Under the pieces are notes generated by a model, which made no database searches, was not told the DNA's origin, and worked only from the letters and a program-made list of their open reading frames with translations. The position numbers and the translations under genes were made by a program. This document shows, piece by piece, positions 29,192-34,609 of a stretch of DNA of 64,000 nucleotides. Location: NCBI RefSeq assembly GCF_001651875.1, contig NZ_LNQB01000073.1:186001-250000 (forward strand), given 5' to 3'. The number at the start of each line of letters is the position of its first letter. The stretch's first letter is position 1. This DNA is from Sinorhizobium saheli (lineage in GTDB: Bacteria; Pseudomonadota; Alphaproteobacteria; Rhizobiales; Rhizobiaceae).

Positions 29192-31528
29192 ATGCTCGTT
29201 GTCGTGACCGCCATCGTCTTCGCCGTGATCGGTCTTGCGACGGCCGCCGGCGGCGCGAAGCTCGTGATGCTTGGCGGCAGCCCCTATTACCTCATCGCCG
29301 GAATAGGTTTCCTTCTCACCGCAATCCTGCTCTTCCGCCGGAAAGGCGCAGCGCTCTGGGTCTATACACTGGTCGTCGTCGGCTCGCTCGCCTGGGCGAT
29401 CTGGGAAGTGGGCTTCGACTGGTGGCAGCTCGGGCCGCGCGGCGGCGTCATCATCCTGCTCGGGCTCTGGCTGCTCACGCCGCGGATCCGGCGGCCACTC
29501 GGTTTCGTCAGCCCCTCCGGCGAACATTATGGCGCGCGCGCCTGGCCGCTTGCCCTTGCCTGCCTTCTGTCGATCGGCGTCGCGGTCTATTCGGTGACGC
29601 AGGATCCGCACGATATCCGCGGCAACCTGCCAGGCGATGCTGTTGCGGCCAATCCCGCTCTCGGCGGCAACGTGCCGCCCGGCGAATGGCATCAATACGG
29701 CCGCACGCCCTACGGCCAACGCTATTCGCCGCTCGACCAGATTCACCGGGAGAACGTCGCGAGCCTCCGGGTGGCCTGGCAGTACCAGACCGGAGACGTG
29801 AAGCTGCCGGAAGACGTCAGCGAAACCACCTACCAGGTCACGCCGCTCAAGGTGAAGGACACGCTCTATCTCTGCACGCCGCACAATTGGGCGATCGCGC
29901 TCGACGCGGCGACGGGCAAGGAGAAGTGGCGGTACAATTCCAATTCCGGCATGAACCCCGACCGCCAGCACCAGACCTGCCGCGGCGTCACCTATTGGGC
30001 CGACCCGGGCGCCGCTCCCGGCAGCCCCTGCGCCGAGCGCGTCTATCTGCCGACATCGGACGCGCGCCTGATCGCGCTCGATGCCGCGAACGGTGAAGTC
30101 TGCAGCGGCTTTGCCGACAATGGGGTGCTGCGCCTCGAACAGGGCATGCGGTACAATCCGGCCGGCTACTATTACTCGACATCGCCGCCGGTCGCGGTCG
30201 CCGGCAAGATCATCATCGGCGGCGCGGTCAACGACAACTATTCGACCCAGGAACAATCCGGCGTCATTCGCGCCTTCGATATCAATAGCGGCGCGCTCAT
30301 CTGGAACTGGGACAGCGGCAATCCGGAGCAGACGGCACCGCTGCCGCCCGGTGAGTTCTACACCACGAACTCGCCGAACAGCTGGTCGGTCTCATCGGTC
30401 GACGAAAGCCTCGGGCTGATCTATGTGCCGCTCGGCAACCAGGTGCCCGACCAGCTCGGCATGGGGCGCAGCGAGCCTGTGGAGAAATATTCCTCCTCGA
30501 TCGTCGCGCTCGACGTCAACACCGGCGCGGTGCGCTGGGTGCGCCAGACCGTGCATCACGACCTATGGGACATGGACGTGCCCGCCCAGCCGGCACTCGT
30601 CGACATCACGAAAGGCGACGGAACGACCGTGCCGGCGCTGGTCGGCCCGACCAAGCAGGGCGACGTCTACGTCCTCGACCGGCGAAACGGCGAGCCGATC
30701 ATCCCGGTCGAGGAAGTGCCCGCCCCCGGCGGCGCCATCCCCGAGGATTTCACGGCGCCGACCCAGCCCGTTTCCGGGCTCACCTTCATGCCGGCGCCGC
30801 TCACCGAGCGCGACATGTGGGGCATCACGATGTTCGACCAGCTCGCCTGCCGCATCGAATTCCGGTCGCTGAAATACGCGGGACGCTACACGCCGCCGTC
30901 GCTCGAAGGGACGATCGTCTATCCGGGCAATTTCGGCGTCTTCAACTGGGGCTCGGTCGCCGTCGATCCGGAACGGCAGGTGATGTTCGGTATGCCGACC
31001 TATCTCGCCTTCACCTCACGCCTCGTCCCGCGCGAGGAGATCCCGCCGAAGGGCGCGGACGAAAAGGGCAGCGAGCAGGGCCTCAACCGCAACGAAGGCG
31101 CGCCCTATGGCGTCTATATGGGACCCTTCCTCGGCCCCTTGCAGATCCCCTGCCAGGCACCGCCCTGGGGCTACGTCGCGGGCGCCGATCTCAGGACCGG
31201 CAGGGTCGCCTACAGGCACAGGAACGGCACCGTCTACGACATGACGCCGCTGCCGCTTCCCTTCAAGCTGGGTGTTCCGGGGATCGGCGGACCGATGATC
31301 ACCAGGGGCGGCCTCGCCTTCCTGGGCGCGACGGTCGACAACTTTCTCAGGGCCTACGACGTCACCACGGGCGACCAGGTCTGGCAAGCACGGCTGCCGG
31401 CCGGCGGCCAGTCGACGCCGATGACCTACATGGCCGGCGACAAGCAATATGTGCTGATCGTCGCCGGCGGGCATGGCTCGATCGGCACCAAGCCGGGCGA
31501 CTATGTCATCGCCTACAGCTTGCCGTGA
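29192..31528 (+). CDS. gcd: Membrane-bound PQQ-dependent glucose dehydrogenase
   Basis: A 778-residue quinoprotein that oxidises glucose to gluconolactone in the periplasm and passes electrons to ubiquinone. The N-terminus has five membrane helices (residues 1-145). The rest is an eight-bladed PQQ propeller with W-motif repeats (ALDAATGKEKWRYN, ALDVNTGAVRWVRQ) and the diagnostic VHHDLWDMDVPAQP. The length matches E. coli Gcd. The cofactor PQQ must come from elsewhere, since no pqq genes lie in this window. Acid production by Gcd solubilises mineral phosphate. The start ATG 29192 has GGGAG ten bases upstream. Confidence 0.96.
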   Translation: MLVVVTAIVFAVIGLATAAGGAKLVMLGGSPYYLIAGIGFLLTAILLFRRKGAALWVYTLVVVGSLAWAIWEVGFDWWQLGPRGGVIILLGLWLLTPRIRRPLGFVSPSGEHYGARAWPLALACLLSIGVAVYSVTQDPHDIRGNLPGDAVAANPALGGNVPPGEWHQYGRTPYGQRYSPLDQIHRENVASLRVAWQYQTGDVKLPEDVSETTYQVTPLKVKDTLYLCTPHNWAIALDAATGKEKWRYNSNSGMNPDRQHQTCRGVTYWADPGAAPGSPCAERVYLPTSDARLIALDAANGEVCSGFADNGVLRLEQGMRYNPAGYYYSTSPPVAVAGKIIIGGAVNDNYSTQEQSGVIRAFDINSGALIWNWDSGNPEQTAPLPPGEFYTTNSPNSWSVSSVDESLGLIYVPLGNQVPDQLGMGRSEPVEKYSSSIVALDVNTGAVRWVRQTVHHDLWDMDVPAQPALVDITKGDGTTVPALVGPTKQGDVYVLDRRNGEPIIPVEEVPAPGGAIPEDFTAPTQPVSGLTFMPAPLTERDMWGITMFDQLACRIEFRSLKYAGRYTPPSLEGTIVYPGNFGVFNWGSVAVDPERQVMFGMPTYLAFTSRLVPREEIPPKGADEKGSEQGLNRNEGAPYGVYMGPFLGPLQIPCQAPPWGYVAGADLRTGRVAYRHRNGTVYDMTPLPLPFKLGVPGIGGPMITRGGLAFLGATVDNFLRAYDVTTGDQVWQARLPAGGQSTPMTYMAGDKQYVLIVAGGHGSIGTKPGDYVIAYSLP

Positions 31529-31570
31529 GGCAAACGAAGGCGGGCGCAAGCAGCTGCAGGGAGGCACGAT

Positions 31571-31645
31571 CGCCCCCGACCCTGGCCCTCTCCCCGCACG
31601 CGGACCGCACGCGGGGAGAAGGTCGCGGCGGCGGGATGAGCCGCA
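31571..31645. repeat. Palindromic repeat, family 2 (partial)
   Basis: Contains CCCTCTCCCCGCACGCGG and its inverted partner GCGGGGAGAAGGTCGCGGCGGCGGGATGAG. It is shorter than the copies in the bet operon. Confidence 0.65.
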
Positions 31646-31705
31646 GCACCGCGCTTGCCGACCGCCCGTTGCGCGACAGCCGGCATCGAGCCGCACAAAT
31701 CCCCG

Positions 31706-31734
31706 TTGACAAATGCGGGGAAATCGACAATCTA
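31706..31734 (+). promoter_or_regulatory. Promoter of the attenuator leader
   Basis: A perfect -35 TTGACA (31706-31711), 17 bp spacer and a weaker -10 AATCTA (31729-31734). Transcription would begin about 31740, exactly at the A of the leader peptide's ATG. Confidence 0.55.
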
Positions 31735-31739
31735 CCCGC

Positions 31740-31790
31740 ATGATCAAGAACGCACCCATTTGCCGCGCGTATTTTTGGCTGTTCCGATAG
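31740..31790 (+). CDS. Aromatic-rich leader peptide (putative attenuator)
   Basis: Sixteen codons, MIKNAPICRAYFWLFR, with Tyr-Phe-Trp-Leu-Phe clustered just before the UAG. There is no ribosome-binding site and the ATG coincides with the expected transcription start, so the peptide would be translated leaderlessly, as described for the S. meliloti trp leader peptide. The codons UAU UUU UGG (31770-31778) sit directly before a hairpin arm (31779-31785), which is where a stalled ribosome would control RNA folding. The peptide is inferred to be a sensor of aromatic aminoacyl-tRNA for the downstream acetyltransferase gene. Confidence 0.6.
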   Translation: MIKNAPICRAYFWLFR

Positions 31791-31844
31791 GAGCGGCCTG
31801 CTGATCATATTCAACAAGGCCGCCATCAGGCGGCTTTTGTTTTT
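31779..31844 (+). promoter_or_regulatory. Attenuator: competing hairpins and terminator
   Basis: Three mutually exclusive pairings are visible. Protector: CUGUUCC (31779-31785) with GGAGCGG (31790-31796), loop GAUA. Antiterminator: GCGGCCU (31793-31799) with AGGCCGC (31817-31823). Terminator: AAGGCCGCC (31816-31824) with GGCGGCUUU (31829-31837), loop AUCA, followed by a UUUUGUUUUU tract ending at 31844. This is the classic 1:2, 2:3, 3:4 arrangement of ribosome-mediated attenuation. Confidence 0.7.
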
Positions 31845-31884
31845 CACGGCACCTGATGGCGGTAAGGACCATGAGGAGCCGAGC

Positions 31885-32388
31885 ATGCTGCAGACCATCA
31901 CCCCCCACCTCCATGCCGTCCCGTCGGTGCGTCCGCCGATGGTGACGATCCGCTGCGCCAAAGCGCGCGACCTTCCAGAACTGCGCGAGATGATCGCCGA
32001 GCTCGCCGCCCATCACGGCGACGCCGCGCCGATCACGACCGCTGAGCTCGAGCGGGATCTCTTCGGGCGGATGCCGTGGATCACGGCGCTCGTCGCCGAA
32101 GCCGGCGGCGAGCTCATCGGCTACGCGATCCTTGTGCCCCAGTACCGGGCGGCCGAAGGCGCCCGCGGCATGGAGCTGCATCACCTCTTCGTCCGCGCCG
32201 CTCATCGCGGCACCGGCATCGGCCGCCATCTCGTCGCCAAGGCGCGCGAACAGGCGAAGATGGCCGGCTGCGAGTACCTTTCCGTCAGCGCCGCCACCGG
32301 CAACTTCCAGGCGCATCGCTTCTACGAGTCCGAACGCTTCGTTCCGCGCCCGGTGACCGGGATGCGCTATCTGCAGAAGCTCAGCTGA
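31885..32388 (+). CDS. GNAT family N-acetyltransferase
   Basis: A 167-residue acetyl-CoA-dependent acetyltransferase. The acetyl-CoA-binding motif A is HHLFVRAAHRGTGIGRHLVAKAREQAK (R-x-x-G-x-G/A) and motif B follows in NFQAHRFYESERFVPR. The N-terminal 20 residues are extra to the domain. The start ATG 31885 has GAGGAG eight bases upstream. It lies 40 bp after the attenuator terminator, so readthrough would be needed for expression from that promoter. The substrate is unknown; the aromatic-rich leader suggests a link to aromatic amino acids or their depletion. Confidence 0.88.
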   Translation: MLQTITPHLHAVPSVRPPMVTIRCAKARDLPELREMIAELAAHHGDAAPITTAELERDLFGRMPWITALVAEAGGELIGYAILVPQYRAAEGARGMELHHLFVRAAHRGTGIGRHLVAKAREQAKMAGCEYLSVSAATGNFQAHRFYESERFVPRPVTGMRYLQKLS

Positions 32389-32401
32389 ACGGGAGGACAG
32401 G

Positions 32402-32998
32402 GTGCGTATCGCGATCGTTCTGACCGAAGACTTCGCCGACTGGGAATGCGCGCTGTTGATGGCCACGGCGCGCGCCGACCTCGGCGTCGATCTCATCATG
32501 GCCTCCCCCGGCGGCACCGTTGTGACGTCGAGAGGCGGGCTTTGCATCACGCCGCACCTGCCGGCGGAAACGCTTGTCCCGGCGGAGTTCGACGGCCTCG
32601 TGCTCTGCGGCGGGCCGATCTGGGAAGCGGCCGCCGCGCCCGATCTTTCCGACGCAATCCGCGCCTTTCATGAGAACGGCCGGGTCGTCGCGGCGATCTG
32701 CGGCGCGACGCTTGCCCTTGCTGCCAGCGGTATTCTGGACGCCACCGAGCACACGGCGAACTCGGCCGCAAGCCTTTCGGCGGTCGCCGGCTACCAGGGC
32801 CACGGGCGCTACCGCGATCAGCCACGCGCGCTTCGCAGCGGCCGCGTGGTGACAGCCGCCGGCACCGCGCCGGTGAGCTTCGCGGCCGAGGTCCTCGCCG
32901 CGCTGGGCTTGGGCTCGAAGGAGCTCGATGCTTATCTCGCGCTCTATGCCGGGGAGCACGCGACCGGCGTGAACGCATGTGAGCCCATGCCGCCCTAA
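32402..32998 (+). CDS. DJ-1/PfpI family protein
   Basis: A 198-residue class I glutamine amidotransferase-like protein with the nucleophile-elbow Cys in AAICGATLALAASGIL and a conserved Glu near the N-terminus (DFADWECALL). Relatives include chaperones, glyoxalases and peptidases. The start is GTG 32402 with GGAGG upstream, 13 bp after the acetyltransferase gene, so it probably shares its transcript and its attenuator. The last ten residues (GVNACEPMPP) and the stop are encoded by the right end of a family 1 repeat, so the native C-terminus has been replaced or extended. Confidence 0.87.
   Translation: MRIAIVLTEDFADWECALLMATARADLGVDLIMASPGGTVVTSRGGLCITPHLPAETLVPAEFDGLVLCGGPIWEAAAAPDLSDAIRAFHENGRVVAAICGATLALAASGILDATEHTANSAASLSAVAGYQGHGRYRDQPRALRSGRVVTAAGTAPVSFAAEVLAALGLGSKELDAYLALYAGEHATGVNACEPMPP
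32962..32998 (+). repeat. MITE-like repeat, family 1 (right-end fragment inside coding sequence)
   Basis: GGCGTGAACGCATGTGAG and the following CCATGCCGCCCTAA match the right end of the full repeat (GGCGCGAACGCATGTGAGCGCATCCCGCTCTAA). It encodes the end of the DJ-1/PfpI protein and, on the other strand, provides the stop of the cytochrome gene. Confidence 0.6.
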
Positions 32999-33909
32999 CG
33001 CGCCGGCAGCGCCTTCAGATAGGCAGCGATCGCTTCGCGGTCGGAGGGCGGAAGCCGCGCCATGTTCTTCTGCACCTCGACCATCAGACCGCCGACGGTG
33101 TCGAAATCCGGCGTGAAGCCGGTTTCGAGATAGGAGGCGATGTCGGATGCGCTCCAGCTGCCAATGCTCTTCGACGCCGGGGTGATGTCGGGAATGCGCC
33201 CCTGGCCCTCCGGGTTCGGCGCGCCGGCCAGCCACATGCCCGGCTCGAACCCGCCAAGCGTGTTGCGCGGCGTATGGCATTCGCCGCAATGGCCGAGGCC
33301 TTCGACGAGATATTGCCCGCGCGCGAGCTTCGCGTCGGCGTTATTGACCGCGACGCGCGGCTCGTCCGTGAGGAACAGCAGTTTCCAGCCGCCGAGCGCC
33401 AGGCGGATATTGTAGGGGAAGGACAGGTCGTGCGGCGGCGCCACATTGGCGCTTTTCGGGAGGGTTTGCAGGTATCCCCACAGGTCGTTGACGTCCTTGG
33501 CCGTCAACCGGGCATAGGAACCGTAGGGAAACGAGGGGTAGAGATGCTCACCGTCCTTGCCGACGCCGCGCGTGATGGCGTTGCCGAATTCCGCCAGCGT
33601 CCAGTCGCCGATGCCGGCGGTCTCGTCCGGCGAGATGTTCGGCGCGTGGAAAGTACCGAACGGGCTCTTCAGCGCCCGGCCGCCGGCGAGCACGAGCCGC
33701 TGGTCATCCGGCGCACCCGGAGCGGCATGGCAGCTGGCGCAGCCACCTGCCCAGAAGACCTGTTCGCCATTCGCGAGATCCGGCTCACCGAGCCCCTCCC
33801 AGTGCGCCGCATCCCAGGCCCTCGGCTTCGTCAGCCACCAGGCGGCGCCGGCGCCGGCCAGGGCCATGAGGATGACACCGGAGATCAGCTTTCTCGTATG
33901 CCGGCCCAT
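32995..33909 (-). CDS. Membrane-anchored dihaem cytochrome c
   Basis: A 304-residue periplasmic electron carrier with one N-terminal membrane anchor (residues 8-27) and two cytochrome c domains. The haem sites are CASCH (about residue 57) and CGECH (about residue 209). Domains of this type serve as subunits for dehydrogenases such as alcohol or gluconate dehydrogenases; here no catalytic partner is adjacent. Its TAG stop (32995-32997) overlaps the TAA of the convergent DJ-1/PfpI gene, so the two genes end on the same four bases. The upstream c-type cytochrome gene is 94 bp away on the same strand. Confidence 0.92.
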   Translation of the reverse strand: MGRHTRKLISGVILMALAGAGAAWWLTKPRAWDAAHWEGLGEPDLANGEQVFWAGGCASCHAAPGAPDDQRLVLAGGRALKSPFGTFHAPNISPDETAGIGDWTLAEFGNAITRGVGKDGEHLYPSFPYGSYARLTAKDVNDLWGYLQTLPKSANVAPPHDLSFPYNIRLALGGWKLLFLTDEPRVAVNNADAKLARGQYLVEGLGHCGECHTPRNTLGGFEPGMWLAGAPNPEGQGRIPDITPASKSIGSWSASDIASYLETGFTPDFDTVGGLMVEVQKNMARLPPSDREAIAAYLKALPAR

Positions 33910-34003
33910 CGCTACCCTTCCCCCTCAGACAAGAATGCGCCAGCCGAGCCAGCGCATTTGCATGTACGTTCTCAATAGAAAATTTGGCGGGAGACGGGCC
34001 TCG

Positions 34004-34450
34004 TCAGTCGTTCTTCAGGCGATAGCTCTCATGACAGCTCGCGCAGTCCTTGCCGAGAATACCGAGCGCCGCGCCGACGCCGGCCTGATCCGCAGGCAGT
34101 TCGGCGAGGATCTTCTCCGCATCGCCGCCAAGCTTGGCGGCCTTCGCCTTGAAGTCCTCCATGTTTTGCCAGATCTTCGGGCTCGCCTCGGTCTCCATCC
34201 CGGTTTCCGAGCCCGGCGGAAAATGATTCGGGAAGATCTTCACGGTCTCGCTGATCGTCGACAGCGATGCCTTGACGATCTCGGCATCATAGGGCTTCTG
34301 GCCCTTGGCGATGCCGTTCAGCGCACCGGCGGCCTCCCCGACCTTCTTCATCAACTGCTGGCGCACCGCTTGCGGCTCGCCGGCCGCGGTGACGGCGGTG
34401 ACGCCCACGCCCGCTATGACGGCAGCAAGCACAAGAACTCTCATCTTCAT
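34004..34450 (-). CDS. Cytochrome c' / c556 family protein
   Basis: A 148-residue periplasmic monohaem cytochrome. The signal peptide (MKMRVLVLAAVIAGVGVTAVTAAG) is followed by a four-helix domain with the haem site CASCHESYR at the C-terminus, as in cytochromes c' and c556. It may bind NO or shuttle electrons. Two adjacent ATG codons fit the GGAG; I chose the second (34450). It lies upstream of, and in the same orientation as, the dihaem cytochrome gene. Confidence 0.92.
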   Translation of the reverse strand: MKMRVLVLAAVIAGVGVTAVTAAGEPQAVRQQLMKKVGEAAGALNGIAKGQKPYDAEIVKASLSTISETVKIFPNHFPPGSETGMETEASPKIWQNMEDFKAKAAKLGGDAEKILAELPADQAGVGAALGILGKDCASCHESYRLKND

Positions 34451-34609
34451 CATGATCTCCACGTCATTCAAAACCCGCTTCCGCGACACGTCCCTTCGAA
34501 GCGCCGGCATGATGGCATTTCGGCTTTTTGACGGAAGTAACATTTTGTTGATGTGCTTGTCATTCCAGCATAATTCGCCCGCAATAGCCGGACGCCGCTG
34601 CTTCCGAGT

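Follow-up and report, generated by a model that had tools for sequence, protein, structure and literature searches.

Leader architecture and its conservation

Why should a gene for a GNAT acetyltransferase, an enzyme without a known role in aromatic metabolism, be preceded by a short open reading frame (ORF) with Tyr, Phe and Trp codons and by a transcription terminator? The locus in question lies in a 64,000-nucleotide (nt) stretch of Sinorhizobium saheli DNA (assembly GCF_001651875.1, contig NZ_LNQB01000073.1, positions 186,001 to 250,000), hereafter the window, in which position 1 is the first letter. The region 31706-31884 had been read in an earlier note as a possible ribosome-dependent attenuator, and this reading was supported by the kept codons, the covarying pairings and a set of relatives whose codons suit the genes behind them. 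With a probability of about 0.82, the leader works as a transcription attenuator of the ribosome-mediated kind, whose leaderless peptide ORF reads the supply of aromatic aminoacyl-tRNA, above all those for Tyr and Phe and nearly always that for Trp. Its elements were as follows.

31706-31711, forward strand: -35 hexamer TTGACA, conserved upstream of the leader ATG
31729-31734, forward strand: weak -10-like site AATCTA after a spacer of 17 base pairs (bp), missed by a sigma-70 scan
31740-31790, forward strand: leaderless leader-peptide ORF, MIKNAPICRAYFWLFR, 16 codons, ATG at 31740-31742 and TAG at 31788-31790
31740-31746, forward strand: 5'-end arm of pairing P0, including the leader start codon, pairing with 31802-31808
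31770-31778, forward strand: Tyr-Phe-Trp codons TAT TTT TGG, the proposed stall site, marked by codon conservation
31777-31785, forward strand: arm 1, pairing with 31790-31798
31790-31798, forward strand: arm 2, pairing with arm 1 or, through 31793-31799, with arm 3
31802-31808, forward strand: 3' arm of P0, with matching changes on both sides in leaders L166, L168 and L170
31816-31824, forward strand: arm 3, pairing through 31817-31823 with arm 2 and through 31816-31824 with arm 4
31820-31830, forward strand: terminator loop with flanks, CCGCCATCAGG, complementary to 31852-31862
31829-31843, forward strand: arm 4 (31829-31837) and the terminator U-tract TTTTGTTTTT
31847-31862, forward strand: element 5, of which 31852-31862 pairs with the terminator loop and 31847-31854 with the GNAT ribosome-binding site
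31874-31881, forward strand: element 6, AGGAGCCG, containing the GNAT Shine-Dalgarno (SD) sequence and pairing with 31847-31854

The -35 hexamer, the ATG, the 16-codon frame and the aromatic codons were found where the earlier note had placed them, and its overall observation of a leader was confirmed; the three pairings it had named (1:2, 2:3 and 3:4) and the terminator were likewise present, 1:2 being two pairs longer than claimed. The leader RNA (31740-31846) folded with a z-score of -4.79, none of 200 shuffles being as good. The locus thus combines a short ORF, whose regulatory codons stand immediately before arm 1, with mutually exclusive 1:2, 2:3 and 3:4 pairings and an intrinsic terminator. 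In the proposed mechanism, ample charged tRNA would let the ribosome reach the stop codon and cover arms 1 and 2, so that the 3:4 terminator forms; a ribosome stalled at UAU-UUU-UGG would cover arm 1 and let 2:3 form first, whereby the terminator would be blocked and GNAT transcribed; and with no ribosome loaded, P0 and 1:2 would form and termination would follow. Ribosome stalling and antitermination are thus what the arrangement would be expected to produce.

Orthologues of the GNAT were found in all 33 genomes of the genus (E <= 1e-40) and in 68 of the 297 genomes of the family (E <= 1e-25). Among 80 named loci kept out of 113 relatives, the leader ORF and terminator preceded the GNAT orthologue in 79, the upstream sequence at the sole exception (L139) being too short to tell, and the leader was also present at 38 of 38 further loci whose GNATs were 43-72% identical, one of which (L142) repeats a named locus (L121). 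These two locus counts used broader criteria than the pattern behind the 120 distinct leaders cited below, which demanded Tyr-Phe, a length limit and a downstream GCCGC, so that those features are fixed by construction. In all 120 distinct leaders the ATG was preceded at 34-39 nt by TTGACA or TTGACT, and in none of them by an SD-like motif. The leader pattern was missing at all four loci of paralogous GNATs in the same genome. Together, these counts indicate a conserved link between the leader and a GNAT without a known role in aromatic metabolism. No leader of the described type was noticed at L185-L187. At L184, where a remote GNAT (37%) occurs in another family, TTGACA, a leaderless ORF (MNLVQNHLNSYHRRLN) and ribosome-binding-site complementarity were observed, without the aromatic codon cluster.

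Trp, Tyr and Phe codons were all present in 119 of the 120 distinct leaders, with TATTTT in 117 and TACTTT in 3. Arm lengths were measured with G-U pairs allowed in 134 leaders, L051 being read twice: five or more pairs were counted for 1:2 in 132 leaders and for 2:3 in 130, and six or more for 3:4 in all 134. Of 75 distinct peptides, 57 had a standard sixth 2:3 pair, whereas shuffling gave 43.6 on average and 53 at most. For this test, for the loop:5 test below and for the 120-leader counts the duplicate L051 reading was removed (it was kept in the P0 and arm-length counts), and 5 of the remaining 133 leaders (L220, L240-L242 and L245) were left out of the sixth-pair and loop:5 tests since their arm 2 was unrecognised by the pattern. 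RNAalifold on the leader alignment returned the terminator only, with little covariation. Both preserved aromatic codons and compensatory stem changes, on which the earlier note had staked its reading, were present among the leaders. Sensing of aromatic shortage by the leader is well supported by comparative sequence evidence.

Related leaders before other genes

A covariance model built from 53 leaders matched 83 of 297 family genomes (E <= 1e-3), including all 68 GNAT carriers, many of them in the training set; the 15 matched genomes without the GNAT gave weak matches only, and the window's genome held one match (E <= 0.001). Weak matches in Rhizobiaceae were inspected by eye, by which the full-length ones (L222-L224 and L227-L231) looked like plain terminators or the ends of genes rather than leaders; L225 was a partial match, and nine further weak partial matches were left out. 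In four family genomes the model scored strongly at one more place (L218-L221), where the codons were Tyr-Tyr; two of these leaders stood before an intact tyrS and L220 before a tyrS fragment, while at L221 tyrS was gone.

At the order level, 20 of 397 genomes were matched (E <= 1e-4), 11 of them outside the family. Six of these 11 matches stood before tyrS (L235-L237, L241, L242 and L245, the copy at L237 having one internal stop) and three before a prephenate-dehydrogenase-like gene scoring over the Pfam and under the NCBIfam cut-off (L238-L240); the remaining two were left unassigned. The match L243 was set aside as unassigned or spurious, and L244 was likewise left aside. At the class level, 12 of 385 genomes were matched, the window's own included. 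These matches comprised a tyrS leader with one Tyr and one Phe codon (L250), five GNAT leaders with Trp-Tyr-Phe (L251-L254 and L257), a trpS leader with Trp-Trp (L256), and a prephenate dehydrogenase leader with Tyr-Tyr, whose frame starts with GTG and runs to 25 codons (L260). The GNATs of these relatives were 29-37% identical to the window GNAT over the aligned parts. Two further aromatic leaders, L255 (WYFTLHT) and L259 (AYFTSSK), preceded short free-standing ORFs like the S4/C-terminal domain of tyrosyl-tRNA synthetase (TyrRS), the S4 match having E 0.0013, below the cut-off, for L255 and 3.6e-7 for L259. L258 was an unassigned or spurious match.

The correspondence between the codons of the relatives and the genes behind them (Tyr for tyrS and prephenate dehydrogenase, Trp-Trp for trpS, Trp-Tyr-Phe for other GNATs) is the strongest support for codon sensing, and the leader most likely belongs to a broad alphaproteobacterial attenuator family. 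A second tyrS was found beside the leader-linked copy in seven genomes (G184, G245, G590, G644, G615, G437 and G588) and also in G524, whose leader-linked copy has an internal stop, while G914 and G887 had three genes above the joint Tyr/Trp synthetase family cut-off where two are expected. By these counts every synthetase checked behind such a leader is an extra copy, a hint of inhibitor or antimetabolite stress.

Pairings around the GNAT ribosome-binding site and alternative explanations

Beyond the pairings named in the earlier note, comparison of the leaders points to three more, all with compensatory changes, namely P0, terminator loop:element 5 (loop:5) and element 5:ribosome-binding site (5:6). 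P0 is formed by the 5' end and the stretch that separates arm 2 from arm 3; over 129 leaders (5 of 134, namely L220, L240-L242 and L245, being left out because arm 2 was unrecognised) the mean longest helix was 6.37, compared with 4.19 for shuffled spacers and 4.38 for the largest shuffled mean, and the pairing tracked the 5'-end changes in L166, L168 and L170. For loop:5, the mean helix length over 75 peptides was 8.83 pairs with the leader's own region, 7.26 in cross combinations and 5.17 after shuffling, with 0 of 5000 permutations reaching the own value, a count rather than a probability here as in the other permutations; the distinct loop:5 types included ATCAGG/CCTGAT, GTCAGG/CCTGAC, GCAAGG/CCTTGC and CCTTCGG/CCGAAGG. 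For 5:6, own pairings averaged -9.9 kcal/mol and cross pairings -7.1 kcal/mol over 26 distinct arms, with 0 of 5000 permutations reaching the own value, and one A-A mismatch was repaired from either side, in L036 and L041 on one and in L095 on the other. With Watson-Crick pairs only, the 5:6 mean was 5.30 in 40 Rhizobiaceae leaders, compared with 3.85 when shuffled, and 5.45 compared with 4.07 in 20 relatives; a first test of the relatives had allowed G-U pairs and was muddied by the U-tract (6.25 versus 5.51), for which reason it was redone.

Because the loop:5 and 5:6 pairings are conserved, a second, translational lock was proposed, which the attenuator probably has. In RNA leaking through a formed terminator, element 5 would pair with the GNAT ribosome-binding site, while in antiterminated RNA the freed loop would capture the emerging element 5 and the ribosome-binding site would stay open. 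With 2:3 enforced and the RNA ended just after element 5, at a point where element 6 has yet to be made, 71 of 75 leaders had loop:5 in their minimum-energy fold. In one genus, four leaders (L159, L165, L167 and L169) had lost the terminator U-tract and kept the CGUCCC/GGGACG complementarity at the ribosome-binding site, which is expected if the translational arm matters alone and suggests control that is, as it were, purely translational there.

A number of observations weigh against the attenuator reading or its translational extension. The promoter proposed in the earlier note stood only as to its -35, which was consensus and conserved; the -10 (approximately AATCTA) was weak and not conserved, and no promoter was returned by the sigma-70 scan of the region upstream of the leader. 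One leader (L166) lacked Trp, and the sixth 2:3 pair was not standard in 18 of 75 distinct peptides. The permutation counts cannot be read as probabilities because the leader sequences share descent. An earlier duplex-energy test of loop:5 was mixed, the own mean being -21.6 and the cross mean -19.0 (10 loop types, 99 leaders), and in no more than 3 of the 10 loop types did the own region come out best; only 6 of 20 relatives individually beat 95% of their own shuffles for ribosome-binding-site pairing, several being unconvincing (for example L219, L240, L241 and L259). In the full RNA at equilibrium, 3:4 and 5:6 formed in each state tried; with 2:3 enforced the SD was still paired, and adding loop:5 cost approximately 6 kcal/mol. 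Finally, no role in aromatic metabolism is known for the GNAT, whose fold, that of polyamine/thialysine acetyltransferases, offers no explanation for an aromatic sensor.

Equilibrium folding was accordingly rejected as proof of the second lock, since it never opened the ribosome-binding site, either in the native full-length RNA in the states tried or with 2:3 enforced. The same result, together with the low ranking of own regions by duplex energy, speaks for a plain transcription attenuator, in which the terminator does everything and the element 5 pairings serve, for example, mRNA stability, or nothing. This simpler account has a real but minor share of the probability: both element 5 pairings covary, and the complementarity at the ribosome-binding site persists on average in the relatives as well as in the four leaders without a U-tract. 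Because the equilibrium folds keep the SD paired, opening of the second lock would need kinetic trapping during transcription, the order in which the RNA is made being what decides.

It was also considered whether the conserved end of the peptide, and not its codons, is the sensor, arresting the ribosome on a small molecule such as a polyamine or a ribosome-targeting antibiotic. The strong conservation of the YFWLFR/WYFTLLP motif and the match of the GNAT fold to polyamine acetyltransferases would suit such an arrest, which is nevertheless improbable, since the relatives swap codons to suit their genes (Tyr-Tyr, Trp-Trp), and both the order (WFYY, YFW, WYFT) and the last residue (R, P, L, Q or S) vary. 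Arrest peptides of the SpeFL/TnaC type would not easily tolerate such changes of residue and order, and the fixed residues and order of that type were not found here, given the permutation in L177 and the swapped codons of the relatives. L177 (...CWFYYANLP), the most divergent leader and the sole exception in the broader scans, had all three aromatics in the permuted order Trp-Phe-Tyr-Tyr, and therefore codons rather than peptide shape are favoured. The codon TTT, moreover, was kept in 120 of 120 leaders, which is notable because it is rare among the Phe codons of the window (51 of 453, whereas TAT made up 164 of 305 Tyr codons, in ORFs with 250 codons or more and a third-position G+C above 0.75). 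Retention of TTT at 31770-31775 could also reflect slow decoding or a constraint at the RNA level, for example a cleavage site.

Equally improbable is that the released leader acts mainly in trans as a small RNA, in the manner of S. meliloti rnTrpL, with its terminator loop possibly pairing with element 5 in the mRNA of the same locus. The loop is complementary to element 5 and covaries with it, but this covariation can also be explained in cis, and the loop comprises only about 4 bases in the formed terminator; the precedent is rnTrpL/RcsR1, as treated in PMC7143759. Chance similarity without regulatory function, for which one could cite only that short ORFs are common, is refuted by the conservation, the covariation and the gene-matched relatives.

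The GNAT enzyme, its neighbours and known systems

The genes behind the attenuator were the following.

31885-32388, forward strand: GNAT acetyltransferase, 167 amino acids, with an SSAT/thialysine-acetyltransferase-like fold (Pfam GNAT; predicted structure)
32402-32998, forward strand: DJ-1/PfpI family gene, an optional operon partner starting 13 bp beyond the GNAT stop

The AlphaFold2 model of the GNAT had a mean predicted local distance difference test (pLDDT) score of 82.4. By predicted fold its nearest neighbours are SSAT and the thialysine/diamine acetyltransferases related to it, with template-modelling (TM) scores of 0.74 to 3bj7_A and 0.77 to 2fe7_B at 28% identity each. As a guess, the GNAT counteracts some stress by which the charging of aromatic tRNAs is reduced; such a stress is favoured as the context because the relatives control additional synthetases and because Streptomyces reportedly has an inhibitor-resistant, attenuated second tryptophanyl-tRNA synthetase (TrpRS). 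Readthrough into the DJ-1/PfpI gene had also been anticipated; its distance of 13 bp from the GNAT held, whereas its place in the core of the unit was rejected, as it adjoined the GNAT in only 42 of 80 loci. The unit was flanked (29192-34543) by a pyrroloquinoline quinone-dependent dehydrogenase gene on the forward strand and cytochrome c genes on the reverse strand.

A wider proposal, speculative and on balance unlikely, is that of a hitherto undescribed regulon for lost aromatic tRNA charging in alphaproteobacteria, in which homologous leaderless attenuators with codons fitted to each gene would control additional tyrosyl- and tryptophanyl-tRNA synthetases, prephenate dehydrogenase, free-standing TyrRS-like S4 proteins and GNATs. 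In this regulon, the role of the GNATs would be to render harmless natural inhibitors of aromatic tRNA synthetases or analogues of aromatic amino acids, and release of the downstream ribosome-binding site would fall to the terminator loop, which would confine translation to properly antiterminated mRNA.

The attenuator reading would extend codon-reading attenuation to an enzyme without a known place in aromatic metabolism, and a single RNA architecture with its codons rewritten per gene would amount to a natural test of the attenuation model. The second lock, if true, would make this a ribosome-mediated attenuator that silences its own leaky transcripts. The leader may also offer a concrete way to learn what a widespread orphan GNAT does, and point to an inducible defence that may exist against inhibitors of aromatic tRNA charging. 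It was undescribed in the literature searched, a search whose scope did not extend to supplements with possible small RNA or small ORF listings, and tyrS leaders of this kind were likewise undescribed there, tyrA and trpS leaders being outside that search.

Among known systems, trpL (rnTrpL) of S. meliloti resembles the window leader in having a leaderless leader ORF with aromatic codons, and it follows the 1:2, 2:3, 3:4 pairing design; the window leader differs in its codons and in its gene, and for trpL no lock on the ribosome-binding site is, to our knowledge, described. RcsR1/SmelC587 was rejected as the identity of the window leader, as RcsR1 is the trpL of S. meliloti according to Rfam and to PMC7143759. 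No Rfam family matched the window at the gathering threshold, and RF02552 (RcsR1/rnTrpL) was absent even among matches to E 5, while the leader model weakly found a trpL copy (L226, MIKTLNIANWWWAR, 29.9 bits), which Rfam names RcsR1. Nor was Rfam Phe_leader (RF01859) matched by the window leader, the score being 16.5 bits compared with a cut-off of 55. The enterobacterial multivalent attenuators (ilvGMEDA) and the pheA/pheST leaders read codons of the end product by means of mutually exclusive stems; the window leader is alike in its stems, whereas its codons are aromatic and its gene is not known to be biosynthetic. In Streptomyces, the auxiliary trpRS1 is reportedly under ribosome-mediated attenuation (Vecchione and Sello, 2010). 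Like the tyrS and trpS relatives, it would be a second aromatic tRNA synthetase, inducible through a leader that reads codons, although it belongs to another phylum and involves no GNAT. The trp leader of Bacillus subtilis, which responds to TRAP, combines a terminator with a hairpin hiding the ribosome-binding site in readthrough RNA. The proposed window leader would share this combination, but its sensor would be the translating ribosome, where that of B. subtilis is the TRAP protein.
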